Shown here: positions 1,754 through 44,901 of the stretch, one piece after another
How the letters are laid out: each line of letters begins with the position of its first letter
Numbering within the stretch: the first letter of the stretch is position 1
Source of the DNA: Cordylochernes scorpioides
Taxonomy: Eukaryota; Arthropoda; Arachnida; Pseudoscorpiones; Chernetidae
Direction: 5' to 3'
Assembly: GCA_030710605.1 (NCBI GenBank)
Contig: CP092863.1
Location: 113,956,010 to 114,020,009, forward strand
DNA length: 64,000 bases
Position numbers and translations under genes: made by a program
Notes under the pieces: generated by a model
Seen by the model: the letters and a program-made list of their open reading frames with translations, nothing else
The model's database searches: none
Told to the model about the DNA's origin: nothing

Positions 1754-1968
1754 TGTTGAAGTTTGAGATTGAATCAAGGAATAAAAAGATTATTTATTAA
1801 ACAAAGTAACTTAAAACAAGATGTTAAAATAGCAAAATTTTAAAAGCAAGTATATAGGAAGGCGAGAGACAAAGACTATATATATTGACGTCGACCGCAG
1901 CGCCGCCGCGGCCGTTGATTGGTCGATCCCGCAATGCTCCACGCCAATTTTTGATCGCTATTCCAACA
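1754..1968 (-). repeat. Possible 3' LTR of the second Copia element (minus strand)
   Basis: On the minus strand the Copia frame runs into a purine tract (GAGAGGGAG) followed at 1968 by TGTTGGAATAGCG, a Copia-like LTR start. A plausible CA end on the minus strand is at 1754. No second LTR is visible to the right, so the far boundary is a guess. Confidence 0.4.
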
Positions 1969-3676
1969 CTCCCTCTCGATCCAAAATGTTCAGTAGACCT
2001 CTTAAGTAGTGGAATTTGTTTCGTGGAAGAGGTTTAGTCATTATATCAGCTAGCTGTTCTGAGCTGCAAACATGATGCACTTTAAGTTCACCTTCTTCAT
2101 GTTTGGATCTAATGAAGTGGTAGCGAACATCAATATGTTTCGTTCGTTTGTGGAATACTGGATTTTCAACAAGTTTTATTGCTGCTTGGTTATCACAGCC
2201 GATGCCCTGTAGAAGTCTTCTGATCCAAATCAATTCCTTAGCAGCACTGCAGGCAGCGATGTATTCACTTTCGGTGGTTGAAAGTGCGATAATTGGTTGT
2301 CGTTGGCTTGCCCAAGAAACAGTTCCTCCGTTCATCATGAAGGCATAACCAGTCGTACTTTTTCTGGAGTCAACATCACGAGCAAAATCACTATCAGAGT
2401 AGCCAGCAAGTTGGTCTTGTCCAGTGAAGAGAATTCCCATGTGTGGAGTGCCTTTCAGATAACGGAAAATATTCTTCACTGTTGTACAATGTGCAGGTCC
2501 TGGATATTCTAGGAATTTACTCACTTGTGAAACTGCATAAGTGATATCTGGACGTGAAACACATGATGCAAACATAAGGGATCCAACAGCTTCTCGAAAA
2601 GGGAATTTAGGCATCTTTTCCTTTTGTTCTGGAGTAGGACAGTCCTGCTTTGTTAAGATGACAGAAGGATCCATAGGCACCGAAGCAGGAATACAGTCAG
2701 CCATATTAAATTTACTCAAAATTTTGTCAATATATGATGACTGGTGAATGAAAATACTTGCCCTATCTTCTGACTGCTCTATTTGTAGCCCAACAAAAAA
2801 GTTAACACTTCCAGATGTAATATCAAATGCGTGTTCTAACTCATCCATTATAATAGCTATTGCCTCTTTATCTTTAGATAGAATAATTCCATCATCAACA
2901 TAGAGAGCTAAGATAACATTTGAATCATTGTGTGTTCCAATGAAAATGCACGGGTCGGCGTCTGATGTTTTGAAATTATGGCTATATAAAAAATTGGTAA
3001 ATTTCTTATTCCAATTTCTAGAAGATTGTCTCAGACCATACAGACTTTTATGTAATCTATAGCAGCTATTATCATCTCTCTTGTAGCCTTCTGGTTGTTC
3101 AAGATAAACAAGTTCCTCTAATTCGCCATTGAGAAAAGCTGTCTTTACATCGAATTGCTTAAGAAACATCCTTTCAGAAGCAGCGTGTGATAAAAGAATG
3201 CGTAACGAATCATACCTGACTACTGGGCTAAACGTATCGAAATAGTCAACATTTTTGATTTGAGAATAGCCTTTTGCAACTAATCTGGCTTTGAACCGTT
3301 GAATTGTACCATCGGACTCCGTTTTAATTTTATAAACCCATTTACAACCGATAGGTTTATGACCATCTGCCAAACGTTCTAAAGTCCATGTTTTATTTTT
3401 ATTTAATGCATCAATCTCTTCATCCATGGCTAATTTCCATCTTTCTGAATCTGAACTTGTTATTGCATCTATATAGTTACTGGGTTCATCAGCGAGCGCA
3501 AAGTTACATTGGCTATTCGAAACTTTAGAGCGTGTTATCATTGGATGCGAACTGATATCGGATACTGGCAGCATTTCCTGCACTGGGATGTTTGTTGTTG
3601 CAACTGTAAAGTTCGAGAGCATTTCATAAATTTTTTTTTTAGTATAATGGAAGAAGAAAGTCATTGTTAAAAACAA
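1958..3676 (-). CDS. Copia-type pol fragment: reverse transcriptase plus RNase H, 5'-truncated
   Basis: An open frame of about 572 codons. Copia similarity starts roughly 45 residues in, at MITRSKVSN, then runs without a break. KWVYKIK and ARLVAKGY open the RT, FDVKTAFLNGELEE is the first catalytic aspartate motif, and LALYVDDGIIL is the YVDD box. RNase H follows with GYSDSDFARD, LSTTESEYIAACSA and CDNQAAIKL, ending in the IMTKPL motif. Gag, protease and integrase are absent and no 5' LTR is seen upstream, so the copy is cut at about 3.6 kb. It differs clearly from the Copia fragment at 1-1230 and is a separate lineage. The RT-RNase H frame itself is unbroken, so the loss was a 5' deletion rather than slow decay. 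Confidence 0.92.
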   Translation of the reverse strand: MFLTMTFFFHYTKKKIYEMLSNFTVATTNIPVQEMLPVSDISSHPMITRSKVSNSQCNFALADEPSNYIDAITSSDSERWKLAMDEEIDALNKNKTWTLERLADGHKPIGCKWVYKIKTESDGTIQRFKARLVAKGYSQIKNVDYFDTFSPVVRYDSLRILLSHAASERMFLKQFDVKTAFLNGELEELVYLEQPEGYKRDDNSCYRLHKSLYGLRQSSRNWNKKFTNFLYSHNFKTSDADPCIFIGTHNDSNVILALYVDDGIILSKDKEAIAIIMDELEHAFDITSGSVNFFVGLQIEQSEDRASIFIHQSSYIDKILSKFNMADCIPASVPMDPSVILTKQDCPTPEQKEKMPKFPFREAVGSLMFASCVSRPDITYAVSQVSKFLEYPGPAHCTTVKNIFRYLKGTPHMGILFTGQDQLAGYSDSDFARDVDSRKSTTGYAFMMNGGTVSWASQRQPIIALSTTESEYIAACSAAKELIWIRRLLQGIGCDNQAAIKLVENPVFHKRTKHIDVRYHFIRSKHEEGELKVHHVCSSEQLADIMTKPLPRNKFHYLRGLLNILDREGVLE

Positions 3677-4435
3677 TGATGATTTTATACTTTTACTATT
3701 TCCAGATCTCTACATGTCCATATATTAGGGCGCCAGTGGCTGCTGAAAAGCAGACCACAAATTTATTCATCTATGGCACATGTAGAGACCTAAAGCTGTG
3801 CCGGCTAGCAATTATATGTTAAAAGGGGAAATTAACCAATCAATATTTTGGCCAAACATATTTTATTTATCCTAAAAAAATAAATTTTCAATGTACTACA
3901 CAAGCAGATATATATATAAGATTTCATGAAAAAGGATAATAAAAAAAAAAACTATATAAGTTTAAAATTGGGAGGAGTTTAATATACATATAAATGTAAA
4001 CACAAACACAAAAAAAAAACCTATTATGCCATTATCCCCAGAATATCCCCACCTACCTTCAGCCACCCATGTCCACCATTCGAAAAAAGGGGCAGCCAAG
4101 GCCGCAGCTAGCGGCCTTCGCCCTCCGCAACTCCAAGTCTTTTTTTGCTTCTCAAAAAAGATCAAATTTTTGTTTAAAAAAAATGTCAATATCAAAAAAA
4201 TGTCAATCTCCAAGAATGTCAATATAAATCTCCCCGCTTCCTTGTCCCAGTGTTGCTGAACTCACCCCCCCAAGCTATCATCGCCTTTCTCTCTATGAAA
4301 ATAAAAAAATTAAAAAGGCATCTTAAAAAAATGATAAAAATAAATTAAATATAAAATTATTAAGGAAATATTCACAAAAAATAAAATAAAAATACGAAAA
4401 TATTGAATTAAAAAAAAACAATTAATATTGTAGGA
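3677..4435. other. AT-rich non-coding stretch
   Basis: Contains many A and T runs and a GC-richer island near 4030-4140. The short frames here have no recognisable motif. It lies between the Copia break and the minisatellite. Confidence 0.4.
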
Positions 4436-12670: not shown

Positions 12671-13023
12671 TTAAAAATGTCTGTGGTCACTGATTGCACT
12701 TTTCAGAATTTTCCATTGTGTTGTGGGTGCGATGTTGTAATTTATCGTAGTGATGTCTATTGCGGATTCTGTGCCTGTGGACTTGGAAAGATAGGTGTTC
12801 TTTTCGTTATTTAACGGTGTAAAGTCGAGGTCGGTTAGCATGTCCTCAACCTGCTGACCTTTGTTATCCTGGACAGGTGATCCCCAAGTTGGTCTTTCGG
12901 CGTTAAAATCACCAAGTATGATTGCGATATCCGAAGACGCTTCACTTAATGTCTCTATCAGGCCTGTATTGATGCTAGTATTATCGTGGTCATAAACATT
13001 TATGATTGGAATTGTTTTATCTG
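12671..13023 (-). pseudogene. LINE ORF2: C-terminal part of APE endonuclease
   Basis: The minus-strand frame reads IPIINVYDHDN, then IILGDFNAERPTWGS with the catalytic GDFNA box, and ends ISDHRHF, the SDH box that completes the APE active site. This is the direct continuation of the part at 16.7-17.06 kb. The open frame formally starts at 13051, but bases above 13023 belong to the inserted LTR element. Catalytic residues look intact although the gene is broken. Confidence 0.8.
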
Positions 13024-13218
13024 TGTCGTGTTCTACGACAAGAATTAACACGAGACGATTTCACACTAAAGAAAACTCTGACTTTATTACTTTTCCTAGC
13101 TATATATATACATCGCGCTTCTCGCGGACATGCAAATATAACAACCTTTCATAAGAAACATAATGTAAAAATATATAAAACAAAACAATACTATGCAAAT
13201 ATCTCGCGGTATGCGACA
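13024..13218 (-). repeat. 3' LTR of the kinase-carrying element
   Basis: 195 bp. On the minus strand it carries TATATATATA and an AATAAAG, suitable as promoter and polyadenylation signal. The last ~38 codons of the element's ORF run into it. Confidence 0.9.
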
Positions 13219-16200
13219 GACTCCCCCCCCATGACCTCTCATCACTCCTGTGATGAGACTCCTGGTGGTTCAATGATTTTTCTAGGTCTTCCAACTTTTC
13301 TCTTTTCCCAATAATCTTTTTAGGCCTACCAACTTTTCTGGCACAAAGAGCCGAGTATTCAGGATAGATTTGATCATGTCGATAGTACTTCCATTCAGCA
13401 CTTTCTCCGTTCTCCACATCACATCGAACAAATAGACCTGGAAGATGATAACGATAGTAACCAGCTGTATGAATAATAGGCGTTTTCAACAGATTATAAA
13501 CCCTAAAATCTTCTTTAGTTTTCTTATCTCTTGATTTCTTAACAGATTTACAAAGTCTATCATGATGTTTCTGCATCATTACTTCAATAAGTGCTGTAAA
13601 AATGATTATCTTATCTTTAAGATCAAATTCAAAGATACTTAACAATGTTAACTTTTCGTTAATGGTAGTATTAACTGTCTCCAAATGTCTTCGCATTATT
13701 TCAGAAGCAGTATAACAGTTGTTATCTGTATTGTCAATAAATTTTGCTAGGCATATTAGAAGTTTGCTTAAAGGCCCCTCAAGAATTTGATTTCTAAGCA
13801 TGGATTCAAATTGAGATGGACCAATAACTTCAGGAAGACCTAACTTTTCACGAAAACCATTCAGGAATTCAAGAATATACATAAAATCTGCAAAATATTC
13901 TTTAAAAGGTAGACAATCTATAGAATTAAGTTCTGGTAACTGAATCTTATCATCTCTTGTTGATTTTCTTTTCTCTAATCTCATTTTCCTAACAATACCT
14001 GCCATTTTCTTTTTAAAAGCATCGCTTCGTTCGATTTCATCCCATCTACACTTAGAACCATCAATAATATAAGATGCAGGAAGAAGTTCATCATCTTTTG
14101 TAATAATTTCTTCAATTATATGGATTTTACCTTCCTCTTTATCTCCGTCTTTAGAATTCACTTTATCAGGTTTCTGAAGAGGCTCCATAGTGTAAGGGAT
14201 GCAATTGTCCTTTTTTGCTGGTTTACTTACGTCTTTAAGATATGCCAGAACAGGCTCGTCATAGGGTGGGATGCAATACACTTCCAGGCAATTTTCGAGT
14301 AATTCCATCTTCGGTCTAGTTGGTCTGCCTATTTTGACATACCACTTCTGGGTTCGAAGTAGCTGCAGGTAACGATAGAACCTCGTGGCCTCTAAAGTAA
14401 AGGATAAAACATCCCCCCCAATCATGGCAATGTCACGTAGTCCTTTCTTTGTCCAATTCGCTTTCACAACTTCCTCGTATATATCTACAGGAGATCCTCT
14501 TTGTTCAACAGATTCCGGTTCATGGAATTCAAGAATTGCCAAATCTTTTAAGATTTGAATTAAACCCTCATACAGTTGTAGAGATGTAGTTACTCTTGGC
14601 AGTTCAGGTAGTGCTGCACGAAGTTCCAAACTCGTATTTATCATTTCAAAATAGAGTCCACTCAGCATAAATAGACTCCCTCCTGAATACTCAGCTGGAC
14701 ATGGTCTCTTTCCATATTCACTAATCATCCTTTGTCTATAATCTATATCCTTAATACACCTGGCATTCCCAAAATCGATTACTTTAGCAATATATCCAAG
14801 AGTTGGGATTTTAATCTTTTTTGAAGCTACTTCATATTTGATTAGTTTCTCTTCTGTTTCTGCAACTAGAACATTGTTAATATGAAGATCATCATGTAAA
14901 AGTTCAATTTCCTCTTCACCAATTGCAAAAATTATACAAATCTGGCGAAATAATACTAATAAGTTTTCATATGAAAGTCTCGATTTGATAGCCGTTTCGA
15001 GAGTTATTCCTCCATATTCCATTAGGAAAACAAAATAATTTTTTCGTTCTCCTTCACAATAGTAAGGCCATGGTTTTCCTTTTTCAAAGATATTTATGAG
15101 AAGCCTAAACGTCTTTTCAGTATCTTTAACAAGCATAAAGGAATATGGATAACATAACTTGACCTGACCATTTTTTAGGGTTCTTAAGGAATTGTAGATG
15201 GCCAATTCATTTCGTAAATCATCAATGTCATATTTATCAAGCATGCTTTTTTGCATCTGGCTGAATTCTTTAGCATAAATCCAAACTTTTTGGCAGCGTG
15301 TTAACTTCTTTAATATTAACAAACGACGTCTTGCGTGATTGCCTTTATTGAAATCACCTATTCCTAATTTCATATTTCTTTTTTCACCGCTTGTTTGAAA
15401 CGAATAGATTCCTTTCTTGAGAGTTTCCAATAGAGTATCGTAACAAGGTAGCTCTCTCAAAGCTTCTTCGCCGGTACCAGGCTTTGGTTCTTTTTTGCCA
15501 GTACCAGACTCCTTAGTAGGTTCTTTTTCGCCAGTACCAGACTCCTTAGTAAGTTCTTTTTTGCCAGTACCAGACTCCTTAGTAAGTTGAGAATCGTCAA
15601 TTGCAGACTTTTCGTCTGAAGGCTTAGAGTTATCGTCTGCAGGCTTAGAGGTATCGTCTGCAGGCTCAGAGTTATCGTCTGCAGGCTTAGAGGTATCGTC
15701 TGAAGGCTTAGAGGCATCGTCTGAAGGCTTAGAGGCATCGTCTGAAGGCTTAGAGTTATCGTCTGCAGGCTTAGAGGTATCGTCTGCAGGCTCAGAGGCA
15801 TCGTCTGAAGGTTTAGAGGTATCGTCTGCACTTTCAGTTTCTATAACTGACTTTTTATCAACTTGAGACTTTTGACTTTCCCCAACTTGAGTGAAAGTGG
15901 CATCATCAAGATCACAGAGTCCTGCATTATCTGCATCAATATCAGCAATAACATCCTCTTTCGTAAGAGACTCTGCACTTTCAGTTTCTATAACTGAATT
16001 TTTCTCAACTTCGGCTTTTTCACCCTCTTCAACTTCAACATAATTTTTTTCAACTTCAGCCCTTTCACTTTCATCTGCTTCAACGAATTTTTTCTCAACT
16101 TCGGCTTTTTCACTTTCTTCCGTTTCTACAACTGAATTTTTCTCAACTTCGGCTTTTTCATTTTCTTCAACAACAGACTTTTTTTCAACGTCAGCCTTTT

Positions 16201-16537
16201 CACTTTCATCTGCTTCAACGGATTTTTTCTCAACTTCGGAAAGTAAGTCCATGATCAAACGTTGCTGCTTCACCATCGTACTGATTTCAGACTTTTCAAG
16301 ACTCTCTAGAGACTCAATATTTGCCTCTTCTTTCTCCTCTTCTTCATCTTCAACAATTGAATATTTAAGATATTCTTTTTGTTCATAGTAATCCTCTTCG
16401 CTGAGATATTCTTCTCTCTTATTTCCACAAAGAATGCTCATCATTAAGCTTTGCTGATCAGCCATCGTCTTGATGAGGCTTTCCAGGGAAGGTCTTGAGG
16501 ATCCTTCACCTCTTCGTCCTGTCGTCGGCTGCGCCAT
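13100..16537 (-). CDS. Haspin-like protein kinase with acidic repeats and a DDT-like domain, carried by an LTR element
   Basis: About 1145 residues, starting at the ATG that overlaps the primer-binding site (MAQPTTGRRGEG). A longer reading would need a GTG inside the LTR. Residues 1-230 are acidic and repetitive (EKAEVEKKSV units). Residues ~236-312 are 7-residue repeats (SKPSDDA, SKPADDN) and ~313-355 are KESGTGKKEPT-type repeats. Residues ~385-680 form a kinase fold. The lysine is in IYAKEF (423), the helix-C glutamate in RNELAIYNSL, the catalytic loop HDDLHINNVL at 548-557 and DFG at 588-590. The text MEYGGITLE, the insert KYEVASKKIKIPTLG before IDFG, and HxDLHxxNVL are haspin-like. Haspin phosphorylates histone H3 Thr3. 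Residues ~870-930 (FADFMYILEFLNGFREKLGLP) resemble a DDT domain of BAZ-type remodelling subunits. A GRPKK basic motif lies near 1070. The tail beyond ~1107 is LTR-encoded. Domain calls are motif-based; kinase fold very likely, haspin likely, DDT fairly likely. Confidence 0.75.
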   Translation of the reverse strand: MAQPTTGRRGEGSSRPSLESLIKTMADQQSLMMSILCGNKREEYLSEEDYYEQKEYLKYSIVEDEEEEKEEANIESLESLEKSEISTMVKQQRLIMDLLSEVEKKSVEADESEKADVEKKSVVEENEKAEVEKNSVVETEESEKAEVEKKFVEADESERAEVEKNYVEVEEGEKAEVEKNSVIETESAESLTKEDVIADIDADNAGLCDLDDATFTQVGESQKSQVDKKSVIETESADDTSKPSDDASEPADDTSKPADDNSKPSDDASKPSDDASKPSDDTSKPADDNSEPADDTSKPADDNSKPSDEKSAIDDSQLTKESGTGKKELTKESGTGEKEPTKESGTGKKEPKPGTGEEALRELPCYDTLLETLKKGIYSFQTSGEKRNMKLGIGDFNKGNHARRRLLILKKLTRCQKVWIYAKEFSQMQKSMLDKYDIDDLRNELAIYNSLRTLKNGQVKLCYPYSFMLVKDTEKTFRLLINIFEKGKPWPYYCEGERKNYFVFLMEYGGITLETAIKSRLSYENLLVLFRQICIIFAIGEEEIELLHDDLHINNVLVAETEEKLIKYEVASKKIKIPTLGYIAKVIDFGNARCIKDIDYRQRMISEYGKRPCPAEYSGGSLFMLSGLYFEMINTSLELRAALPELPRVTTSLQLYEGLIQILKDLAILEFHEPESVEQRGSPVDIYEEVVKANWTKKGLRDIAMIGGDVLSFTLEATRFYRYLQLLRTQKWYVKIGRPTRPKMELLENCLEVYCIPPYDEPVLAYLKDVSKPAKKDNCIPYTMEPLQKPDKVNSKDGDKEEGKIHIIEEIITKDDELLPASYIIDGSKCRWDEIERSDAFKKKMAGIVRKMRLEKRKSTRDDKIQLPELNSIDCLPFKEYFADFMYILEFLNGFREKLGLPEVIGPSQFESMLRNQILEGPLSKLLICLAKFIDNTDNNCYTASEIMRRHLETVNTTINEKLTLLSIFEFDLKDKIIIFTALIEVMMQKHHDRLCKSVKKSRDKKTKEDFRVYNLLKTPIIHTAGYYRYHLPGLFVRCDVENGESAEWKYYRHDQIYPEYSALCARKVGRPKKIIGKREKLEDLEKSLNHQESHHRSDERSWGGSLSHTARYLHSIVLFYIFLHYVSYERLLYLHVREKRDVYI
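13219..13232 (-). promoter_or_regulatory. Polypurine tract of the kinase-carrying element
   Basis: Minus strand ATGGGGGGGGAGTC immediately before the 3' LTR; the eight G are encoded within the ORF as glycines. Confidence 0.7.
15470..15602 (-). repeat. 33-bp coding repeats (KESGTGKKEPT units) in the kinase ORF
   Basis: Three to four in-frame 11-residue units directly following the 7-residue array, highly charged and likely unstructured. Confidence 0.85.
15610..15830 (-). repeat. 21-bp coding repeats (7-residue units) in the kinase ORF
   Basis: About ten in-frame units of the type SKPSDDA / SKPADDN / SEPADDT. Length stays a multiple of three. A frame on the same strand, offset (15457-15831), reads as LSLQTIP repeats and is a shadow of this array. 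Confidence 0.9.
16518..16536 (-). promoter_or_regulatory. Primer-binding-like site of the kinase-carrying element
   Basis: Two bases inside the 5' LTR the minus strand reads TGGCGCAGCCGACGACAGG. TGG at the start matches a tRNA CCA end, and TGGCGCAGYCG resembles sites that some insect gypsy elements pair with tRNA-Ser. It overlaps the ATG of the ORF (ATGGCGCAG). Confidence 0.55.
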
Positions 16538-16538
16538 T

Positions 16539-16734
16539 TGTCGTGTTCTACGACAAGAATTAACACGAGACGATTTCACACTAAAGAAAACTCTGACTTT
16601 ATTACTTTTCCTAGCTATATATATACATCGCGCTTCTCGCGGACATGCAAATATAACAACCTTTCATAAGAAACATAATGTAAAAAATATATAAAACAAA
16701 ACAATACTATGCAAATATCTCGCGGTATGCGACA
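16539..16734 (-). repeat. 5' LTR of the kinase-carrying element
   Basis: 196 bp; identical to 13024-13218 by eye except for one extra A in an A run. Confidence 0.9.
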
Positions 16735-17060
16735 ATCTGTAAGATAGATTTTATTGCCTGAGCTTCTGTCGTGCTTTCTCTAGGCATACCCCGATTATAG
16801 GCGATTTCCTCAAATTTGATTTCTAGAGTTTTAATCAAAACGGCAAGTCCTCCTGCGAATTTTCCCGGTCTGTCCTTTCGTAGTGTTGTATAATCTTTGA
16901 TATTGAATCTCAGATTCTGATTCAATATTGTCTCCTGCGGACAAGTAATATGTACATTGTTGTCACAGAGAAGACAAGTCAGCTCTTTATTTTCCTCTGG
17001 GTACCATTTATATTGAGTTGTAGTAGATTTAATTGTGTCCTCGTAGTAGATTTCTCATCA
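16735..17060 (-). pseudogene. LINE ORF2: N-terminal part of APE endonuclease
   Basis: The minus strand reads LNLLQLNING, the usual opening of an APE-type LINE endonuclease, near 17040. It then reads NQNLRFNIKDYTTLRKDR and GGLAVLIK, matching the family pattern of a Y-x-x-x-R-x-D-R box followed by a glycine-rich GG.A.LIK box. The frame is shifted within the stretch. It stops at the LTR-element boundary at 16734 and resumes at 13023, one base out of frame relative to this side. In the family this domain nicks target DNA to prime reverse transcription. Confidence 0.7.
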
Positions 17061-25560: not shown

Positions 25561-26238
25561 TTTTTGGGAATGCTAAACTTTTATCGTACCTTTTTGAACA
25601 ATGCCGCAGAGACTCAGGCAACCTTTACTTGAGGGGTGCCAAGAAAAAGGATAGAAGCGAAATTAAATGGACTGAAGAAGTTGAAGTTCAGTTTAAAAAT
25701 CCAAACAAGCCCTAGCTAATACAGCACTGTTAGCCTACCCCGATACTGAACTGCCTATCTCACTCTGTACTGATGCTTCAGATCGGGCAGTTGGATCAGT
25801 TCTCCAACAGCTTGACAATAATACATGGAAACCAATAGCATTTTTCTCTAAAAAATTAAATCCTGCTCAATGCAATTATAGTGCATATGATAGAGAGCTT
25901 CTCGCAATATATTTGTCTATCAAATTCTTCAAGCACCTGTTTGAGACACGTGAATTTACAATTTTAACTGATCACAAGCCTTTAATTTACGCATTCAAAC
26001 AAAAAAAATGAGAAAGCTTCTCCTAGACAATTAAGGCATCTTCAATACATCTCCCAATTCACTACTGACATCAAGTACATAAAAGGTACTGACAACATAC
26101 TCGCCGATGCTCTGTCCAGAGTTGATGCTATCACAACCATCGACTATGAAGAGATCGCCAAAGAACAAACTGGTGATTCAGAACTACAATCTGATATCAA
26201 CTACTGATATCAAAGAATACCTCTCTAAAATTTAAGCA
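25561..26238 (+). pseudogene. gypsy RT connection and RNase H
   Basis: Reads ELRIFLGMLNFYRTFL near 25.55 kb. After a shift it reads CTDASDRAVGSVLQQL, PIAFFSKKLNPAQCNYSAYDRELLAIYLSIKFF and LTDHKPLIYAF, a full RNase H with catalytic D and E. A stop then precedes RHLQYISQFTTDIKYIKGTDNILADALSRV, another conserved block. At least three frame breaks. Confidence 0.8.
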
Positions 26239-27657
26239 ATGCCCAATACAATCAGGCAATTTGTTATGGTGTCTACCAATAATATTAGACCATTCATTCC
26301 AATTAAATTCCGAATGATGGTTTTTAGGAACTTCCACGAACTCTCACACCCAGGCATCAAAGCCACAACTAAAGACATTAGGAAATGTGTTCAAGCTTGT
26401 GTTAACTGCCAAAAGTGCAAGGTGTCGATACACACGAAATCAGAAATAGGCAAATATCAAGAAGTGGATGAAAGATTTAGTGTTGTGCACATCGATCTAA
26501 TTGGTCTTTTACCTCCGTCGAATGGTAACATCTACTGTCTGACCTGTATCGACAGGTACACCAGCTGGATGGAAGTTGTTCCGCTACCAGATATGAAGTC
26601 TGAAACGGTAGCGAGAGCGTTCTACGAAAACTGGATTGTTAGATTTGGAGCACCGCTTACAGTGATATCAGACCAAGAAAAGCAGTTTACTTCTCAAATT
26701 TTAAAAGATTTAACAACGCTGTGTGGTATCAAACTTCGTCATTCCACGGTGTACCACCCTCAGTGTAACGGGAAGATTGAAAGGCTTCATAGAACCATTA
26801 AAACTGCCATTCGTGCCCACAATAATATTAAGTGGACAGAAACGCTGCCAACAGTTCTCCTAGGCTTGCGTGCTGCTATCAACAAAGATAACAACCATTC
26901 TTTGTCTCAAATGGTATATGGAAAAACCATCAGACTTCCTGACGAATTCTTTGATGATTCTAAATATCACCTGGACAATTTTTTTTTTGACAATTTAGAC
27001 AATTTTATTGATTCTTTTAATCAAATTTTGCAAAGGAGAAAAATAAAAGAGTAAAAGGGCATATAAAGTGTAGGGGAATATATATACAATAATCTTCAGC
27101 AAGGAAGGCTTCCCCACCTTGAGAGAGTCCTCCTCCAGACAAGGAGGGGGTCTTCTTGTACAATTCTCAGTTCCGCGCCGAGGAAGTACCTATAGATGCG
27201 CGTCTTGGCAGACGCCAGGATGGCCAGGGCGTCATCGTCTAGGCCATGCCCGATAAATATCACCTGGATGCAGAAGAATTTGTTCAACAGCTTCAAAAGC
27301 AAATGGAATTGCTCAAAACATCATTCGAAGACTAAAGTATTTGTCCATAAAGATCTGAAAACATGTTCACATGTATTTATCTGGACAGATCGAGTGAAGA
27401 AACCTCTGGAACCACAATATGAGGGACCCTTTCCAGTCCTTGATAGAACAGACAAGTACTTCACACTCAAAGTGAAAGGAAGAAATGTGACCATATTGAT
27501 TGACCGATTGCGACCTGATTACTTACTGGCAGATTCGGACAATCTAACTTCAGAACACCCTACTGCAACAAGACCGATCGTGTCGGGAGCGCTGCCTTCT
27601 ACATCGTCCCAACAGAATCCTGACCCACCAGATGTGGAGAAGTACACAGAATTCTAA
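26239..27657 (+). pseudogene. gypsy integrase split by a LINE insertion
   Basis: The first part (26239-26975) has the zinc-binding HHCC domain (HELSHPGIKAT...CVNCQKCK). The D-D-E core follows with VVHIDLIG, VISDQEKQFTS and HPQCNGKIERLHR. It is interrupted at 26976 by a 278-bp LINE fragment. The second part (27269-27657) resumes after the duplicated TAAATATCACCTGGA. It holds the GPY/F-type C-terminal module (QYEGPFPVLDRTDKYFTLKVKGRNVTILIDRLRPDYL, read in short blocks). The frame is broken by the insertion and a further stop near 27.33 kb. Catalytic residues appear intact. Confidence 0.85.
26976..27253 (-). mobile_element. 5'-truncated LINE fragment (family C) inserted in integrase
   Basis: Flanked by TAAATATCACCTGGA at 26961-26975 and 27254-27268, a 15-bp target duplication. 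On the minus strand it encodes the end of a LINE ORF2 (RIYRYFLGAELRIVQED, WRRTLSRWGSLP) and finishes in an A-rich tail. A related copy on the plus strand lies at 45110-45333. Confidence 0.85.
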
Positions 27658-29269: not shown

Positions 29270-30961
29270 CTCCCCCCGGCCGCTGAACCCTGGTTCAGAT
29301 TTGAAGGGAAGCGGAGCCAACTTCGTAATAGGTCGTAGGTAGACTCCGGTAGCAGCCCGAACTTGGGCAACTCGCACCTTCTGGTCAGAGCCCGGATATA
29401 CCTCGAGGATCCTGGCCAGACGCCACTGTAGAGGTGGAAGGTTATCTTAATTTATTAGCACTAACTGATTAGGCTTCAAATTGTCTTGTGACAACCTCCA
29501 TTTATTTCTCTGTTGCAAAGAGTTAATGTACTCTCTTGTCCATCTTGACCAGAAAGAGTTCCTCAGACCTTGTACCATATTCCATCTTGATAGAGTTAGA
29601 GACTTACATGGGGCAACTCTGGTTTTTGCTGCAAGCATTGATATATGGACTTGTCCATCCAGAGAGACTGTTCTTAAGTAGCACACAGTCGAATAAGCTA
29701 CACTTGACGCGTCACAAAATCCGTGGAGTTGAACATCTCGATCCTTTTCACATGCCCATACGTATCTTGGGATACTCAAATCCTCTAATTTTAGTAATTC
29801 GGCTCTAAAATTATTCCACTTTTCCTTGATGTCGTTCGGAATATGCTCATCCCAGCCTGTCCCACCTCTCCATAACTCCTGCATTATTATTTTCAAAGCC
29901 ACTGTAGTAGGTGAGAGGAAACCAATTGGATCGAAAATCCTCGCAATATTGGAGAGAAGATCTCTTTTGGTAACAACTTCTTCAGGAAGAGTTATATTAA
30001 CTCTAAACGTATCTTGTACATGATCCCATACAATTCCTAAAATCTTGGATATGGCTCCTTTCTCCAAGTTAATTTTCTTCTCTTCGTTCATTTCCTCGAC
30101 ATGAGACACTATCTCGTGGCAATTTGAATTCCACTTTCTTAAGTGAAACCCTCCCTTTTTCATTAAGTCTTTTAATTGGTCTATTAGTTCTTTGGTTTCA
30201 GCAATCGTTTGAGCTCCTGTTAGCAGATCATCGACATAGAAATCATTCAAGGTCACCCTAGAAGCTTCAGGATAATTATGGCCTTCATCTTCTGCTAACT
30301 GTTGTAATGTTCTCATTGCCAAAAATGGAGCCGAAGTTGTACCATAGGTAACAGTCAGTAGTCGATAGTCCACCACAGGCTCTTCTGGCGATGGTCTCCA
30401 CAATATCCTCTGATAGTCCGCATCTTCTGGATGAATTCTTATCTGGCGGTACATCTTTTCTATATCAGCAGTTATGGCGACAGGATACGTTCTGAATCTG
30501 AGGAGAATGAAAAATACATCCTGTTGGAATTTTGGTCCCTTGTGCAAAAATTGATTTAAAGAAACATTATTTTCAGATTTAGCTGATGCATCAAACACAA
30601 CTCTCATTTTTGTTGTAGTGGATTGCTCTCTAATTACTGGATGATGAGGCATGTAATAGCATCTGCACAATTCTCGCTTCACTTCTGCAATTGGGACCCT
30701 TTCCATGTGGTTTAAGTGTTCATATTCCTTCATGAATCCCCGGTATTGGTCATATAATTTCACATTCTTACACAATTTTCTTTCCAACAAAAGGAACCTT
30801 CTTAAAGCTTTTTCTCTTGATTCACCCAGAAGCGGTCGATGTTGTCTGAATGGCAATTTTACCCAATACCTTCCATGGCTATCTCTGCCATGGTTATTCG
30901 AAAATAAACTTTCACAATCTTCGTCCTGTGTACAAAGATCCGGTGACGGCACAGATTCAGT
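29270..30961 (-). pseudogene. BEL/Pao RT fused to integrase tail by an internal deletion
   Basis: In register with the gag frame, the text continues after a TAA. RT landmarks are MRVVFDASAKSENNVSLN, ITADIEKMYRQI and LNDFYVDDLLTGA with the YVDD box. The start of RNase H follows (LHGFCDASSVAYSTVCYL, AAKTRVAPCKSLTLSR). Immediately after it comes WNMVQGLRNSFWSRWTREYI, which belongs near the integrase C-terminus. About a kilobase or more coding for RNase H and the integrase core is thus missing without loss of frame. A second TAA at 29447-29449 precedes the last block (NLPPLQWRLARI, RPITKLAPLP). Reverse transcription could in principle be encoded but integration could not. Confidence 0.9.
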
Positions 30962-32815
30962 TTACCAGAATCTTTTCATTACGAATTCTAGTTCTGGTTC
31001 AGATTGTAAACTCAGGTTACAGACTTCTGTATTAATCTCCGATGTTCCCATGAGTTTTCCTAGAAGTACCCAACCTAGTCTTGTATTAATAGCCATTGGC
31101 AATCCTTCTCCGAGAGATATAGGGCCATTCAACATAAGTTCAGTGTATACATCTGCTCCCAATATCATATCTATTGGGGCTTGTATGTAGAACTTTGGGT
31201 CTGCCAATTTGAGGTTATTCAAAGTTGGCCAATTAGGGTCTTTCAACCTGAAGTTCGGAATTTCTGAAGTGAGCACTCCCGTGACTACTGCCTCTACCGA
31301 GAATTCCTCAGAATTATTCAGTGGACAAAATGTCACACTTACTGTCGATGAAGAATGCTGCACTGGTGTGTTTCCAACCCCTATAATCATCCGATCTGAT
31401 TTCCTTTGGACAAGTCCCAATCTTTCGCAGCATCCTTTTGTTATCATGGTGACTTGGGAACCGCTGTCCAGTAGGGCTCTGCAGGTGCATAACTTTCCGA
31501 GTCCATTTTTTATCTTGATTCCAGCTGTTGCGAGTAGTACGTGGCTATCATTGCAGTTTGCCTGTTGAGTATTAGTCAAATTGATAGCACTTTCATGTTC
31601 CTTCGGAGTTGTGTTCTCAACTTGGGCCGAAGCGCCTTCCGTGCTCGGTTTATCATAATGAATCATCGTGTGGTGCTTCCCCTTGCATACTTTGCATCGT
31701 TGGTTCAGCCTACAATTCCATGAGAAATGGCCTTTCCTCAAGCAATTGAAGCACAATTTATGACTCTTTACTACATTTAATTTTTCTTTTAAAGGCATTT
31801 TGCAAAATAAGTTGCACATGTATAGTGGATGATGCTTAGATTTGCATAATATGCAAGTGTCCGAACTCTCAATTAGCATCCCGTAGCTTTGGCATTTGGG
31901 AAATCTCGATCCGGTGGTTTCTTCCTTTTTTGAACATTCCCTGACAGCACAAGACATGCTTCTCGCATGTCTGGAAATGAACGCTATGAACTTGTCATAA
32001 GATGGAAGAGTGTTGTCCACTGACAGTTCCCAATCCAACCTTAGATTTTCACTCAACTTCTGCTGGAGGAAGTGCACCAGGATCACATCCACTAATTGAT
32101 TTCTCTTCAATTCCAGCGTTTCTAAGTTTCTTATGGCTTCATTACAAACATCCATGAATTCATGGAGACACTTAGCCGATGGATTCTTAATTGCCCGGAG
32201 AGAAAATATTTTTGACACCTGGGCATAAGCTAGCTCTCTCGGGTTATCAAATCTTGATAACAGTGTACTCCATGCTTGGCCATAATTTTCACTTATTAAA
32301 GGGAAACCCCTTATTAATCTGGCCGCTTCGCCTTTTACTGCAGAATTCAAATATTGTAACTTCTGTATATTAGTTAACCCTGGATGTGCATCGATGGTGG
32401 TGAGGAATAGCTCTTTGAAGTTGATCCAAGTGCCCATATCTCCATCATATATCGGCAAGTCAAATTGAGGCAATTTTATATTTGCCTGAGAGCCATTTGG
32501 CTTTATGTCCGCCAGTTTGTCTTTGAGTTTTCTTTTATTTTCTATTTTTACCCTCAAGCTTCCAATCTTGTTCATTGAACTATCATATGCCTCACTTTTT
32601 TTATTTATATCAACTTCATCCAAAGAAAACAGCTCATCGTAGAGTTTCTCAATTTTTTCTTTGATCTCCTTTAATTCTTCGCCCATTATTTCTAAGCGTA
32701 CTGTTTCACCTGCCACAATAATTGAATCCACAGTTTCAATAAATCCATCAATTCGCCTTATCTGGCAACTTAACTTTCTTTGGAGGATCCTTTCGTCTCG
32801 AGAGACATTTCGCAA
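30962..32815 (-). CDS. BEL/Pao Gag and protease
   Basis: Open frame of about 617 codons. The N-terminal third is a coiled-coil-like charged region. It is followed by the DUF1759-type Gag core (IKLPQFDLPIYDGDMGTW, NFKELFLTTID, KLQYLNSAVKGEAARLI). Next come paired zinc motifs (CILCKSKHHPLYMC, CFNCLRKGHFSWNC and CKVCKGKHHTMIH). The A17-type protease then begins (CRALLDSGSQVTMI) and extends to PIDMILGADVY and TRLGWVLLGK, all standard BEL/Pao landmarks. It ends at a TAA (30962-30964) and the RT continues downstream in the same frame. In most BEL/Pao elements gag and pol form one frame, so this stop is probably a mutation. Confidence 0.92.
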   Translation of the reverse strand: MRNVSRDERILQRKLSCQIRRIDGFIETVDSIIVAGETVRLEIMGEELKEIKEKIEKLYDELFSLDEVDINKKSEAYDSSMNKIGSLRVKIENKRKLKDKLADIKPNGSQANIKLPQFDLPIYDGDMGTWINFKELFLTTIDAHPGLTNIQKLQYLNSAVKGEAARLIRGFPLISENYGQAWSTLLSRFDNPRELAYAQVSKIFSLRAIKNPSAKCLHEFMDVCNEAIRNLETLELKRNQLVDVILVHFLQQKLSENLRLDWELSVDNTLPSYDKFIAFISRHARSMSCAVRECSKKEETTGSRFPKCQSYGMLIESSDTCILCKSKHHPLYMCNLFCKMPLKEKLNVVKSHKLCFNCLRKGHFSWNCRLNQRCKVCKGKHHTMIHYDKPSTEGASAQVENTTPKEHESAINLTNTQQANCNDSHVLLATAGIKIKNGLGKLCTCRALLDSGSQVTMITKGCCERLGLVQRKSDRMIIGVGNTPVQHSSSTVSVTFCPLNNSEEFSVEAVVTGVLTSEIPNFRLKDPNWPTLNNLKLADPKFYIQAPIDMILGADVYTELMLNGPISLGEGLPMAINTRLGWVLLGKLMGTSEINTEVCNLSLQSEPELEFVMKRFW

Positions 32816-32865
32816 TTGTATTCTCGCTGAGTTTTTTCCTAAATTTCTTCTGTTTCAAATCCTAA

Positions 32866-36061: not shown

Positions 36062-37075
36062 TTATCTTATTTTATTTAAGTCTATTGAATTATATGCTTC
36101 TGGTAAATCAATTCTGCGATTTATACTGTTATATTGTTTGGACACTATTGCTTCAATTATTAATCTTTGAAATTTATTATTAATATTGTTATAATGTACT
36201 TTAGGTTCATTTAAGTTAAATGTGTGTCCTGTTGAATTGGAGTGCTGTACTATTAATGATAATGGGTCATTTCTGTTTATGTTTCTTCTGTGTTCAATGA
36301 TTCTATTATGCAATTTTCTTCCCGTTTCTCCTACATATTTGGCATTACAATTATTACATTCTATAGAATAAATTACCTCTTTTCTGTTTGATATATATTC
36401 AGTTTGCCTGTTTTTTGTAATCGGGTTTCTTAAGATATCTGATAAGTTGGGAGAGTTGCTATAAAAGGTTTTTATTCCATATTTATCTAGTGTTCTAGAA
36501 ATGTGGATGGATTTCGGGGAATATGGGATGTAACAATTCTGCCTATATATTTTAGTTTTTTGTGCTGACATGTTAGATGTGACCTGTGCCTGATAGAAAT
36601 GTTTTAAAATAAATGTTTTGGGATAACCAGCTGATGTCAAATTATTGATAACGGTTTGCGTTTCTTGCGTTTTGTATTGATTTAAAGAACAATGAGTATA
36701 AATTCTTTTAGTTAATGTTTTCACTGTGTTAATTTTATGACTAATGGGGCAGAATGAATAAAATTTTATATAATTGGGGGTGAATGAAGGTTTGTAGTAA
36801 ACTGTTGTTTGCAATCTATTGTCTATTTTAATTATTTTAATATCTAAAAATGGCAATGTGCAATTATCTTCTTTTTCTATAGTGAAACGTAAGCTATTGT
36901 TATAATTGTTGAGTGAGGCTAAGATGTTGGGAATCTGTTTTTCTGTACAAATGCAAAATATATCATCTATATATCGTCTGTATAATATGATGTCTGCTGG
37001 ATATGATGATGTTATCCAATTGTCGATTTCTCTCATAACTATTTCGGCTAATGGAGTTGATAATGGGCTTCCCAT
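36062..37075 (-). CDS. Penelope-like RT/GIY-YIG polyprotein, left inverted copy, 5'-truncated
   Basis: 337 open codons beginning MGSPLSTPLAEIVM, the RT motif B region, then LYRRYIDDIFCI with the YIDD catalytic pair and LPFLDIKI. The C-terminal endonuclease of GIY-YIG type reads VIYSIECNNCNAKYVGETGRKLHNRIIEHR. A C-terminal stretch with HSNSTGHTFNL and RLIIEAIVSKQYNSINRRIDLPE follows. The protein is residue-for-residue the same as the plus-strand copy from 37301 on. RT motif A is missing because the copy starts at the inversion centre, so it cannot be active alone. Confidence 0.92.
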   Translation of the reverse strand: MGSPLSTPLAEIVMREIDNWITSSYPADIILYRRYIDDIFCICTEKQIPNILASLNNYNNSLRFTIEKEDNCTLPFLDIKIIKIDNRLQTTVYYKPSFTPNYIKFYSFCPISHKINTVKTLTKRIYTHCSLNQYKTQETQTVINNLTSAGYPKTFILKHFYQAQVTSNMSAQKTKIYRQNCYIPYSPKSIHISRTLDKYGIKTFYSNSPNLSDILRNPITKNRQTEYISNRKEVIYSIECNNCNAKYVGETGRKLHNRIIEHRRNINRNDPLSLIVQHSNSTGHTFNLNEPKVHYNNINNKFQRLIIEAIVSKQYNSINRRIDLPEAYNSIDLNKIR

Positions 37076-37118
37076 AGGGGAACCCTTGATTTGTTTATAT
37101 TGTTTTTGGTCAAAAACG

Positions 37119-38314
37119 TAGAGGCCTTATATCCCAGTCTCCCCCATAACTTAATAATTGAAACTACTAAAACCTTTTTAAATAACAATACGATAGACTC
37201 TAAAACAATAGATAAAATAATAGATTTAATTACATTATGTCTTAGAGTTAACATATTCACTTTTGACCAAAAACAATATAAACAAATCAAGGGTTCCCCT
37301 ATGGGAAGCCCATTATCAACTCCATTAGCCGAAATAGTTATGAGAGAAATAGACAATTGGATAACATCATCATATCCAGCAGACATCATATTATACAGAC
37401 GATATATAGATGATATATTTTGCATTTGTACAGAAAAACAGATTCCCAACATCTTAGCCTCACTCAACAATTATAACAATAGCTTACGTTTCACTATAGA
37501 AAAAGAAGATAATTGCACATTGCCATTTTTAGATATTAAAATAATTAAAATAGACAATAGATTGCAAACAACAGTTTACTACAAACCTTCATTCACCCCC
37601 AATTATATAAAATTTTATTCATTCTGCCCCATTAGTCATAAAATTAACACAGTGAAAACATTAACTAAAAGAATTTATACTCATTGTTCTTTAAATCAAT
37701 ACAAAACGCAAGAAACGCAAACCGTTATCAATAATTTGACATCAGCTGGTTATCCCAAAACATTTATTTTAAAACATTTCTATCAGGCACAGGTCACATC
37801 TAACATGTCAGCACAAAAAACTAAAATATATAGGCAGAATTGTTACATCCCATATTCCCCGAAATCCATCCACATTTCTAGAACACTAGATAAATATGGA
37901 ATAAAAACCTTTTATAGCAACTCTCCCAACTTATCAGATATCTTAAGAAACCCGATTACAAAAAACAGGCAAACTGAATATATATCAAACAGAAAAGAGG
38001 TAATTTATTCTATAGAATGTAATAATTGTAATGCCAAATATGTAGGAGAAACGGGAAGAAAATTGCATAATAGAATCATTGAACACAGAAGAAACATAAA
38101 CAGAAATGACCCATTATCATTAATAGTACAGCACTCCAATTCAACAGGACACACATTTAACTTAAATGAACCTAAAGTACATTATAACAATATTAATAAT
38201 AAATTTCAAAGATTAATAATTGAAGCAATAGTGTCCAAACAATATAACAGTATAAATCGCAGAATTGATTTACCAGAAGCATATAATTCAATAGACTTAA
38301 ATAAAATAAGATAA
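37119..38314 (+). CDS. Penelope-like RT/GIY-YIG polyprotein, right inverted copy, 5'-truncated
   Basis: Recognisable protein begins VKNVEALYPSLPHNLIIE, just after RT motif A, and continues through GSPMGSPLSTPLA, YRRYIDDIF and the GIY-YIG domain to the same stop as the left copy. The open frame starts at 37091, but the first bases belong to the left arm. About 140 bp (37119-37260) are present only here. In the family the endonuclease nicks target DNA for RT priming. It lacks the N-terminal part of a full Penelope ORF. Confidence 0.92.
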
Positions 38315-42605: not shown

Positions 42606-44901
42606 CAGGGGTCTCCAAACTTTCCAGCCTTAGGGCCATACTGATGGGGTCTTTCCAGCCTTAGGGCCATACTGATTACTCCAGTAAGTTCCGAGGGCCA
42701 AGATGGCAACACTGCATATTATTAATTTTCCTGTATTAATTGTTATGTTTATTTATTATTAAATGTTATTATTAATTGTTGCTTTTGTGTGTGATTTAGC
42801 AGAATGGAAAAGAAGCGAAAAATTGATAGTGAATGCAGAAAATTCAAAGATCAGTGGAACATTCAGTATTTCGTAATTGAGTCCAGTAACAAGGCGCTAT
42901 GTTTGATTTGCAATGAAAGCATAGCCGTTCTCAAAGAATATAACATGAAACGTCATTATGAAACAAAACATTCTCAAAATTACTCAAAATATACAGGAAT
43001 TGTGCGGACAGAAAAATTCGAAGCTTTGAAGCGCGGATTGAAATCGCAGCAATCTTTATTTACAAAAGTCAAAACTGAACAAGAGGCGGCAACTCGTGCC
43101 AGCTTTCGTGTGGCTCTTGAAATTGCAAAACGTGGAAAACCATTCACCGATGGAGAAATGATCAAGGAATGCATAATTGCAGTAGTCGAAGAAATGTGCC
43201 CTGAAAAGGTAAATTTATTAAAAACTGTCAGTATGTCAGCAAACACTGTGGCTCGAAGGGTAGAAAACATCGCTGAAAATATATCCTCTCAACTGCTCGA
43301 CAAAAATGGACATGTTGAGTGGTTTTCTTTGGCCTTGGATGAGTCAACGGATGTGTCAGATACTGCTCAGGTGTTGATTTATATTAGAGGAGTAGATAAA
43401 AGCTATGAAGTGCACGAAGAACTTCTTGATATGTATAGTATTCATGGCACAACTACTGGTACCGATATTTTTAAAGGAGTTGAAATGGCCATTAATAAAA
43501 AGAACCTTCGATGGAAAAACTTGAAATGTATTACAACTGATGGAGGCAAAAACATGAGTGGGAAAGATAAAGGAGTGGTCGCTCTTGTGTCAAAGGCTGT
43601 AGAAAATGACGGCGGCTCAAAACCATTAGTCTTACATTGTATCATTCATCAACAGTCTTTGTGCGGAAAATGTTTGGATATGTCTGACGTTCTGAAACCA
43701 GTCATATCAACTGTTAATTTCATCAGATCTTTTGGGCTGAATCACCGACAATTCCGACAATTTATTGCAGAGATTGGAGACACAGACTTACTTTATCATA
43801 CTGCCGTACGCTGGCTTAGTTGTGGGAAAGTCCTTCAGCGCTTTTTTGAACTTCGAGCAGTGATCGAAATTTTTTTGAATGAAAAGCACCGCCCTCTTAC
43901 TGAATTACAAAACAACGCATGGCTATGGAAGTTAGCATTCTATGTTGATTTGACAAAACATGTGAACGAACTGAATTTGAGATTGCAAGGAGAAAACCAG
44001 CATCTTCCTGATTTATACACTAATATCAAGTCATTCCGGATGAAATTGATACTGTTTCAATCACAACTACGAAGTAAATGTTTTTCACATTTTAAAACAT
44101 GTGAAATATTCAGCCACACTACTGAGACTGAGTTTCCTATCGATTTTGCAATCGAAACTTTGAGTGCTTTGAAGATAAATTTTGATACTCGTTTCTCGGA
44201 CTTTGATGCCATTGCGAATCAAATTAAGATTTTTCAGAATCCTTTTGATGCTGACATTGAAACCCTAGCCCCGGAACTTCAAATGGAAATGATTGATCTT
44301 CAGTGCAGTGATATAATTAAGAACAAATATGAAAACTCATCTTTGTTGGAATTTTATAAGAGTCTTCCACTGACACAATTTGATAATTTGTATAAATTTG
44401 CTCGTGGGCTGTTTTCCGTTTTTGGTACTACTTATTTGTGTGAGAAAACCTTCTCCAAAATGAAGTACACAAAAAATGTATACAGATCTAAATTAACTGA
44501 CGAGCATCTTAAATCTCTTTTAATAATTGGTACAAGTAAAATTAGTCCACAACTACAAACTATTGTCGGTGGAAAATCTCAATTACATACATCTCATTAG
44601 CATTTCATATGTCATGTTATAAGGTATGTGTTGTTCATTACTTACAATGTATAAAATGTAAGTTGGATTCATTTCAATAATTTGTTAGTTATTATATGCT
44701 GAAGTTAAATTTGCTGCATAAATTAAACATGTCTTTACTCATTACCATTCTGTGTTTCTTTATCCAACTTATCACAAACATTTTATTTGCTATAAAAAAT
44801 ATTTGTTCTCTAAAAGGAGTTTTCAAGTATGTCTCCGCGGGCCGGACAAAATCTGTCTGCGGGCCGGATGTGGCCCTCGGGCCGTAGTTTGGAGACCCCT
44901 G
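42606..44901 (+). mobile_element. Complete hAT DNA transposon
   Basis: The ends are inverted (CAGGGGTCTCCAAACTTT at 42606 and its partner GTAGTTTGGAGACCCCTG ending at 44901). CCTTACAG flanks both sides (42598-42605 and 44902-44909), the 8-bp duplication expected of hAT. A single full-length transposase frame lies inside. A 25-bp direct duplication (TTTCCAGCCTTAGGGCC...) sits just inside the left end. The undisrupted paralogous site at 41009-41016 confirms the boundaries. Confidence 0.96.
42804..44600 (+). CDS. hAT transposase (BED finger, GTF2IRD2/ZBED-like group), intact
   Basis: 598 residues from an ATG 198 bp inside the left end. Residues ~25-55 form a BED-type zinc finger (CLICNESIAVLKEYNMKRHYETKH). 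The RNase H-like core follows, with SLALDESTDVSDTAQ carrying the first catalytic aspartate, KCITTDGGKNMSGK with the second, and LHCIIHQQSLCGK. The C-terminal hAT dimerisation region ends in YLCEKTFSKMKYTKNVYRSKLTDEHLKSLL, containing the conserved late catalytic area. The text resembles GTF2IRD2 and ZBED-type proteins, which are domesticated hAT relatives, but terminal repeats show this is a mobile copy. No stop or frameshift is seen, so it may encode active enzyme. Confidence 0.95.
   Translation: MEKKRKIDSECRKFKDQWNIQYFVIESSNKALCLICNESIAVLKEYNMKRHYETKHSQNYSKYTGIVRTEKFEALKRGLKSQQSLFTKVKTEQEAATRASFRVALEIAKRGKPFTDGEMIKECIIAVVEEMCPEKVNLLKTVSMSANTVARRVENIAENISSQLLDKNGHVEWFSLALDESTDVSDTAQVLIYIRGVDKSYEVHEELLDMYSIHGTTTGTDIFKGVEMAINKKNLRWKNLKCITTDGGKNMSGKDKGVVALVSKAVENDGGSKPLVLHCIIHQQSLCGKCLDMSDVLKPVISTVNFIRSFGLNHRQFRQFIAEIGDTDLLYHTAVRWLSCGKVLQRFFELRAVIEIFLNEKHRPLTELQNNAWLWKLAFYVDLTKHVNELNLRLQGENQHLPDLYTNIKSFRMKLILFQSQLRSKCFSHFKTCEIFSHTTETEFPIDFAIETLSALKINFDTRFSDFDAIANQIKIFQNPFDADIETLAPELQMEMIDLQCSDIIKNKYENSSLLEFYKSLPLTQFDNLYKFARGLFSVFGTTYLCEKTFSKMKYTKNVYRSKLTDEHLKSLLIIGTSKISPQLQTIVGGKSQLHTSH

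Follow-up and report, generated by a model that had tools for sequence, protein, structure and literature searches.

Among long terminal repeat (LTR) elements, Bs1 of maize keeps part of gag without its enzymes, and TRIM and LARD elements have no long coding frame. In Bs1, segments of three host genes are assembled in a chimeric gene (PMC13317346). TRIM and LARD elements are non-autonomous and are thought to be moved in trans, the helper being often unknown; a non-autonomous family of this kind, PbTRIM, occurs in an animal, the ant Pogonomyrmex (PMC3532108). DNMT-carrying retrotransposons of Symbiodinium and of a charophyte took up a DNA-modifying gene, whose domain lies beside the enzymes of the element, is under purifying selection and is active in at least one case (PMC5890265). 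The present analysis concerns an LTR element of the pseudoscorpion Cordylochernes scorpioides, located at 13024-16734, on the minus strand, of a stretch of 64,000 nucleotides (assembly GCA_030710605.1, contig CP092863.1, positions 113,956,010 to 114,020,009) hereafter called the window. It is probably a non-autonomous Ty3/Gypsy retrotransposon with a mosaic cargo of cellular-gene fragments, copied in trans by gag-pol relatives, and it looks like a gene-shuffling parasite and not like the carrier of one working kinase.

Among the published cases that we met, maize Bs1 is the closest. Like Bs1, the window element joins several host gene segments in a hybrid frame and has no enzymes of its own. 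It differs by its animal host, by the presence of Ty3/Gypsy gag-pol relatives in the same genome, by the gene families concerned, by its several subfamilies with reshuffled cargo and by a repeated Gag-like motif. TRIM and LARD elements are also non-autonomous LTR elements; in contrast with them, the present copies contain a frame about 950-1150 codons long, and their ends are shared by gag-pol relatives. With the DNMT retrotransposons the element shares the uptake of chromatin- or DNA-modifying genes, but it is without its own enzymes, and the replacement/silent ratios of its cargo are near or above 1 in well-aligned subfamily blocks and below 1 in some less reliable counts.

Structure, copies and gag-pol relatives of the element

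Paired LTRs, a target duplication, a primer site and a polypurine tract identify an LTR retrotransposon, with the following features.

12674..13024, minus strand: target of the insertion, a long interspersed nuclear element (LINE) endonuclease split by the element, left part (Pfam Exo_endo_phos_2, E 9.2e-18)
13019..13023, no strand: left copy of the target-site duplication ATCTG, repeated at the other element end
13024..13218, minus strand: 3' LTR, 195 bp (comparison of the LTR pair)
13100..16537, minus strand: single open frame, 1145 codons plus stop; its ATG overlaps the primer site and its stop lies within the 3' LTR
13219..13233, minus strand: polypurine tract, CATGGGGGGGGAGTC as read on the minus strand, common to the copies
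16526..16536, minus strand: primer-binding site TGGCGCAGCCG, complementary to a tRNA-Ser 3' end over these 11 bases
16539..16734, minus strand: 5' LTR, 196 bp (comparison of the LTR pair)
16735..16739, no strand: right copy of ATCTG, from the flank letters

The only difference between the LTRs is one A within an A-run. When the flanks are joined through one ATCTG they read as a decayed LINE that the element interrupts, the joined frame being shifted near the junction. A preliminary description, made from the letters of the window, had proposed near-identical LTRs, the ATCTG duplication, a primer-binding-like site, a polypurine tract and a frame of about 1145 codons from the primer site into the 3' LTR, and all of these were recovered. 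It had also seen no retroelement enzyme: Pfam and NCBIfam profile searches found no such domain in the 1145-codon frame, and protease, reverse transcriptase, RNase H and integrase are not found in the element, but the Gag-like nature of the first codons had been missed.

The 2.6 Gb assembly was searched with the LTR; 40 of 1610 candidates were scored and every listed match was 99-100% identical. These 40 matches are mostly paired, 2.4-3.5 kb apart, and fall at 21 loci including the window, i.e. 20 further loci, all from the LTR list, which together with the window form our first set. Both LTRs are present at 18 of the 20 further loci and a solo LTR at 2. The two LTRs are identical and equal in length in 15 of the 18 cases, the exceptions being L012 (1 difference over 195 sites), L018 (3' LTR match beginning at base 3) and L023 (second LTR match of only 98 bp). 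Exact 5-bp duplications flank all 21 loci, compared with 16 of 420 cross-paired flanks used as a control, so that ATCTG is not a chance repeat; among later-fetched loci 5 out of 6 have an exact duplication, L063 being without one. Given the near-identical LTR pairs across copies, the first-set group is very young. A search with the LTR end plus the primer site gave 102 genome matches at up to 2 mismatches (reversed-pattern control: 0); among the 100 listed, 40 were exact, 3 had one mismatch and 57 had two. The family is thus dispersed in the genome, large and young.

The protein search returned as relatives four predicted proteins, all from Cordylochernes scorpioides. Outside Cordylochernes no relative was found at E at most 0.001 (7992 candidates scored), none for the DDT region at E at most 1 (993 candidates), and none for the kinase alignment at E at most 1e-10 (7092 candidates), this last result being weak since host kinases were also missed.

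At 6 of the 21 first-set loci the target duplication reads TATAT or ATATA, a hint of a TA-repeat preference, without background comparison. L017 (C1:164421768-164427990) contains two units around a common middle LTR, with three LTRs identical to the query and one outer 5-bp duplication, which looks like LTR-LTR recombination or tandem integration.

The interior of the element opens, after AA, with TGGCGCAGCCGACAGGAT in 13 out of 19 copies and with TGGCGCAGCCGGCAGGAT in 4; L013 and the window diverge beyond the first 10-11 bases. Complements of both were found at 3' ends in a genome pattern list (238 matches, control 0), which includes some of the elements' own primer sites. The one locus inspected from it, with the second-type (TGGCGCAGCCGGCAGGAT) complement, is a tRNA-Ser(UGA) gene. 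Nine of the 100 listed LTR-end-plus-primer matches start with AAACACCACA, and the two of these nine that were inspected, L063 and L064, are both Ty3/Gypsy gag-pol copies with domains in separate frames. L063 matches the Ty3 peptidase (E 5.9e-7), RNase H (about 4e-31), integrase H2C2 (7.6e-20) and rve (8.2e-6, below its cut-off), L064 matches reverse transcriptase (E 1.1e-32), and the Ty3 capsid match in the gag-pol copies is below its cut-off. Their LTRs are 84-85% identical to the window LTR over 148-152 bp and the primer site is common. The start of the window frame is 59% identical to the Gag start of both over 29 amino acids (aa), and its 3' end is 72% identical to L063 over 57 aa and 70% to L064 over 63 aa. 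By sequence similarity, then, the LTRs, primer site, Gag-like start and 3' tail of the element are related to gag-pol Gypsy elements of the same genome, as in a non-autonomous Ty3/Gypsy derivative. The L063/L064 lineage is the likely parent lineage and helper type, and the earlier suggestion that the element is moved by another element's enzymes appears probable. The Gag frame of L064 (L064:264-1283) has about 70 additional N-terminal residues compared with L063 (Gag-like motif at residue 108 instead of 36).

The preliminary description would have been overturned by LTRs found nowhere else or by an internal frame that is a gag-pol; both were looked at and neither held. It is hardly credible to read the frame as a diverged gag-pol or as a host gene lying between repeats by chance: its Gag-like N-terminus is the one feature that agrees with a gag-pol, no enzyme domain was found, many copies have paired LTRs and target duplications, and the empty site is visible in the LINE. 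We rejected this explanation through the copy structure and the lack of enzyme domains.

Patchwork cargo and donor-like genes

The frame is a patchwork of a Gag-like stub, acidic repeats, an SRR1 fragment, a haspin remnant, a NAP-like scrap, an ACF1/BAZ1-like DDT-WSD module and a Gypsy tail. In the order of translation its parts are as follows, all on the minus strand.

16403..16537: Gag-like stub at the N-terminus, containing SLESLIKTMADQQSLMMSIL (59% identity to the L063/L064 Gag frames over 29 aa)
16238..16285: the Gag-like motif again, as a partial second copy, ISTMVKQQRLIMDLLS (motif scan)
15455..16237: acidic linker with tandem repeats of 21, 33 and about 45 bp (repeat analysis)
15227..15454: SRR1-domain fragment holding IYAKEF (75% identity over 89 columns to P0003)
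14537..15232: remnant of a haspin-like kinase beginning at helix C, with HDDLHINN and DFG but without N-lobe (Pfam E 9.5e-6; PDB haspin E 2.4e-6; alignment)
13877..14536: segment absent from the short form, limits approximate, between ATTCTTGAATTCC direct repeats (copy alignment)
14231..14263: NAP-like scrap YDEPVLAYLKD (by eye, against the L066 NAP domain)
13331..13957: ACF1/BAZ1-like DDT-WSD module, limits approximate (Pfam DDT E 0.0017, sub-threshold; 36% to L068)
13229..13255: Gypsy-derived 3' tail, part, HHRSDERSW (common with the gag-pol relatives)

The Gag-like motif is present 2-3 times in each of the 15 cargo frames scanned (the second copy being partial in the main group), and once in each of the two gag-pol Gag frames. 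Fragments related, in sequence, to SRR1, haspin-like kinase, NAP and ACF1/BAZ1 DDT-WSD genes stand in place of the remainder of gag-pol. The preliminary description, which had seen a haspin-like kinase with a DDT-like domain as the only cargo, is corrected on this point: the homologies to haspin and DDT that it reported stand, and the cargo consists of several gene pieces, not of one captured chromatin gene.

The SRR1 assignment comes from P0003, whose residues 315-431 match Pfam SRR1 (E 4.8e-12); the window fragment alone has no Pfam SRR1 match. The SRR1/kinase junction was placed by eye at a KYDI/EYDI match. IYAKEF, formerly read as the motif of the kinase lysine, thus lies in a segment that aligns to the SRR1 domain.

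Homology of the kinase module to haspin (GSG2) is significant, as first proposed, and the module is an incomplete remnant. The Pfam Haspin_kinase match covers only profile positions 179-243 of 364, instead of the complete domain formerly claimed, and reaches 25.3 bits against a cut-off of 25 when searched as a fragment (23.4 bits, below the cut-off, as a whole protein). In an alignment with seven haspin-like open reading frames (ORF) of the same genome, the window sequence starts at helix C, so that unlike haspin it has no N-lobe. The residue at the ATP position is Lys in all seven (by eye) and Arg in L062, and has no counterpart in the window. The HRD motif reads HDD; the catalytic Asp and the DFG are retained. 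A profile built from the haspin-like alignment finds haspin structures at E 7.8e-54, and the N-lobe of L062 aligns to that of L045. P0003 represents a second kinase type, 26% identical to the first and likewise with Arg at the Lys position. Structures predicted without alignment were uninformative (mean pLDDT, the predicted local distance difference test score, of 37 and 35). A complete, active haspin kinase was rejected, since the bilobal domain and the ATP-binding lysine are missing and IYAKEF belongs to the SRR1 fragment.

The DDT-like region is below the cut-off when taken alone (Pfam DDT 18.9 bits against 22). It is real by its match to an ORF of the same genome, L068 (36% over 205 residues, E 7e-38), in which a WSD domain is found (E 4.6e-11) and, below threshold, WAC and DDT. 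The homology is thus to the ACF1/BAZ1 proteins, of which the DDT-WSD part alone is present here. A PDB search with the C-terminal region of the frame gave two chance-level matches only.

The distribution of the modules was analyzed across the genome. All 53 candidates of the DDT-WSD search were scored and gave 52 matches: 36 near-full (90-100% identity), 2 in L017 and 3 pieces located together; the remaining 11, distant ORFs with 28-38% identity, form a donor-like set. Among the 36 near-full matches, 23 lie within open frames of 900 codons or more and 24 start at query residue 31-32, as in the short form; aligned copies indicate that this form lacks the segment between two 13-bp ATTCTTGAATTCC direct repeats, a large in-frame deletion. 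Four further copies, L061, L062, L065 and L066, have other cargo. L062 carries two kinase pieces, one with N-lobe (Pfam E 5.6e-4, below the cut-off) and a second one that is a remnant; L065 has DDT-WSD together with a kinase beginning at the hinge, and L066 a window-like kinase with a NAP domain (Pfam NAP E 5.8e-28), the kinase limits being set by eye. The same search did not show the DDT module in L062 and L066. Cargo modules therefore differ between subfamilies. A NAP query gave at least 151 genome matches (150 of 300 candidates scored); among the rows listed, 27 span the full 128 residues with 92-100% identity, and one of these 27 contains a stop.

Frames resembling possible donors are abundant in the genome. 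There are at least 113 haspin-domain matches (112 of 588 candidates scored), L031-L060 among them, a striking expansion; most are frames of about 300-450 codons, apparently intron-free and partly in arrays. At least 150 SRR1-domain matches (150 of 236 candidates scored) include many arrayed frames about 240-310 codons long; on C5 and C18 some of the matches have haspin-like frames a few kb away, and the weakest matches sit in long frames resembling those of the elements. ACF1/BAZ1-like frames are present in several copies (L068, C12:79.57-79.68 Mb, C13:9.1 Mb, C1:62.8 Mb), mostly of about 560-720 codons, with no introns in the part inspected. No match to the three LTRs tried was found at the 30 haspin loci and L068. 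It could be that the donors themselves belong to a selfish element, virus-like or other, that is present in many copies and abounds in haspin- and SRR1-like frames, a proposal about the source only, compatible with a trans-copied mosaic element. The number of these matches, their mostly intron-free frames and their proximity in some cases are consistent with it; we consider it improbable, as the flanks of the 30 haspin loci (about 1.5 kb per side) show only small clusters of similar ORFs, and four loci have long direct repeats on either side, like tandem gene arrays.

Selection on the long frame

Replacement and silent changes were compared between subfamilies. In DNA blocks of 90% identity or more the replacement/silent totals of the six subfamily pairs are 0.92, 0.96, 1.06, 1.17, 1.53 and 2.07, none significantly different from 1. 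The kinase block common to the window and L062 has 6 silent and 32 replacement changes. The 15 blocks were not tested singly; the lowest ratio, 0.34 (8 silent, 9 replacement), is that of the first 220 bases of the window-L066 comparison, and two others are at 0.57-0.58. Open frames with near-neutral proportions in these well-aligned blocks make a working kinase unlikely, as judged from sequence.

The same figures bear on the hypothesis of the preliminary description, namely that the element captured a haspin-DDT regulator of chromatin, and that the kinase targets histone H3 and assists the element in persisting or in choosing its sites. Its homologies to haspin and DDT-WSD are genuine, the catalytic Asp and the DFG are kept, 23 of the 36 near-full DDT-WSD copies are in long open frames and some counts give ratios below 1. 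The window has neither N-lobe nor ATP lysine, its HRD reads HDD, L062 has Arg at the lysine position, replacement is not depleted in the best-aligned kinase block, sister copies with other cargo are numerous, and no DDT module was seen in L062 and L066. Such a chromatin function is very improbable.

Frames are open between copies whose aligned blocks differ by 2-24%. Random placement of the observed substitutions predicts about 6 stops for window-L062 and about 7 for L062-L066, and the chance of no stop, as a product over blocks, is about 0.001 and 0.0005 respectively, and 0.007-0.05 for the other four pairs. Of the 28 aligned blocks, 26 agree in reading frame. Among the 18 indel rows within blocks of 90% identity or more, 15 have a length divisible by three; a single LTR site accounts for two of the other three, and the last is at an alignment edge.

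Several results weigh against a trans-copied mosaic element selected, if at all, for its open frame. The autonomous partner sought after the preliminary description was found as two gag-pol relatives with related LTR and the same primer site, but their frames are both broken and no intact helper is among them. The listed donor-like genes appear single-exon, so that no intron loss is visible on capture. Ratios of 0.54-0.78 by region were obtained pairwise among 14 intact close copies, whose kinase and DDT regions diverge by under 1%, too little change to weigh them. A protein-alignment count between subfamilies, less reliable since it also aligns repeats and unlike joins, gave scattered ratios from 0.23 to 2.99: 0.30 for the SRR1 fragment against L062 (5 silent, 6 replacement), 1.18, 0.57 and 2.99 for the window kinase against L062, L065 and L066 respectively, 0.46 and 0.74 for L062-L065, and 0.81 and 0.58 for L062-L066. 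Given the ratios below 1 in these two counts, weak constraint on the cargo is possible. When only blocks of 90% identity or more are used, the chance of no stop rises to about 0.08 for window-L062 and 0.02 for L062-L066, and the subfamily pairs are not independent. Two of the 28 aligned blocks begin out of frame. Indels whose length is not divisible by three are frequent in blocks below 90% identity, most of which are repeats and the 3' end; such blocks were excluded, these indels being ascribed to misaligned repeats. Broken frames occur in the first set (5 of 19, with 14 intact) and among later copies (1 of 4, with 3 intact). The openness of the frames is suggestive, because the copies compared were chosen for intact frames.

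A simpler possibility is that of an ordinary non-autonomous LTR element in which the captured DNA and the frame have no role, the frame being open through youth or through the joining of open exons. Identical LTR pairs, the low divergence of the 14 close copies and the near-neutral replacement ratio between subfamilies agree with such passive filler, whereas the frames are open despite the divergence of the aligned blocks, indels come in threes within blocks of 90% identity or more, and the Gag-like motif is retained and repeated. We regard it as possible, if doubtful.

For the trans-copied mosaic element that we favour, the mechanism could be as follows. Template switching, while co-packaged RNAs are reverse-transcribed, would bring in fragments and reshuffle them, and gag-pol relatives of the L063/L064 type would copy the elements in trans. 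The kept feature would be a frame that begins with the Gag-derived motif and stays open between the primer site and the 3' LTR; such a frame may aid packaging by the helper Gag or shield the RNA from nonsense-mediated decay. It is unlikely that selection keeps kinase activity. The repeated Gag-like motif, the changing cargo, the lost catalytic parts and the near-neutral replacement rather point to selection, if any, on translation of the long frame with the Gag-like motif at its start. In a stronger form, which is rather unlikely and which we put forward tentatively, selection in this lineage would keep the open frame and not the amino-acid sequence, and the captured pieces would be translated filler, any of which could take the place of another, following a repeated Gag-derived motif; this motif would hijack helper particles or spare the RNA from decay.

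Neighbouring elements and meaning of the family

The window contains other mobile elements: a reverse transcriptase of RVT_2 (Copia) type at 1958-3709, an integrase at 26236-27054, a Pao-type gag-pol at 29447-32854, a hAT-like frame at 42795-44600 and a Transposase_1 (mariner-type) frame at 54943-55683. At 36062-38314 two near-identical frames with reverse transcriptase plus GIY-YIG are arranged head-to-head in opposite orientation (Pfam RVT_1 below the cut-off in one frame, GIY-YIG sub-threshold); we take this pair to be Penelope-like.

Among the papers listed in literature searches on haspin and retrotransposons there is no report of this element; as only open-licence papers were covered, this says little about novelty. 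The published LTR elements we met that capture genes into hybrid frames are from plants. The present family is from an animal; it has numerous very recent copies and several subfamilies that cut, join and swap the same gene pieces, and relatives that are candidates for its helper type occur in the genome. As a natural series, it could be used to test how gene fragments are recruited by retroelements, and whether the open frame itself, and not the function of the protein, can be under selection in a mobile element. If selection on the frame only were true, the family would be a continuous exon-shuffling machine minting chimeric proteins, several of them from chromatin genes.

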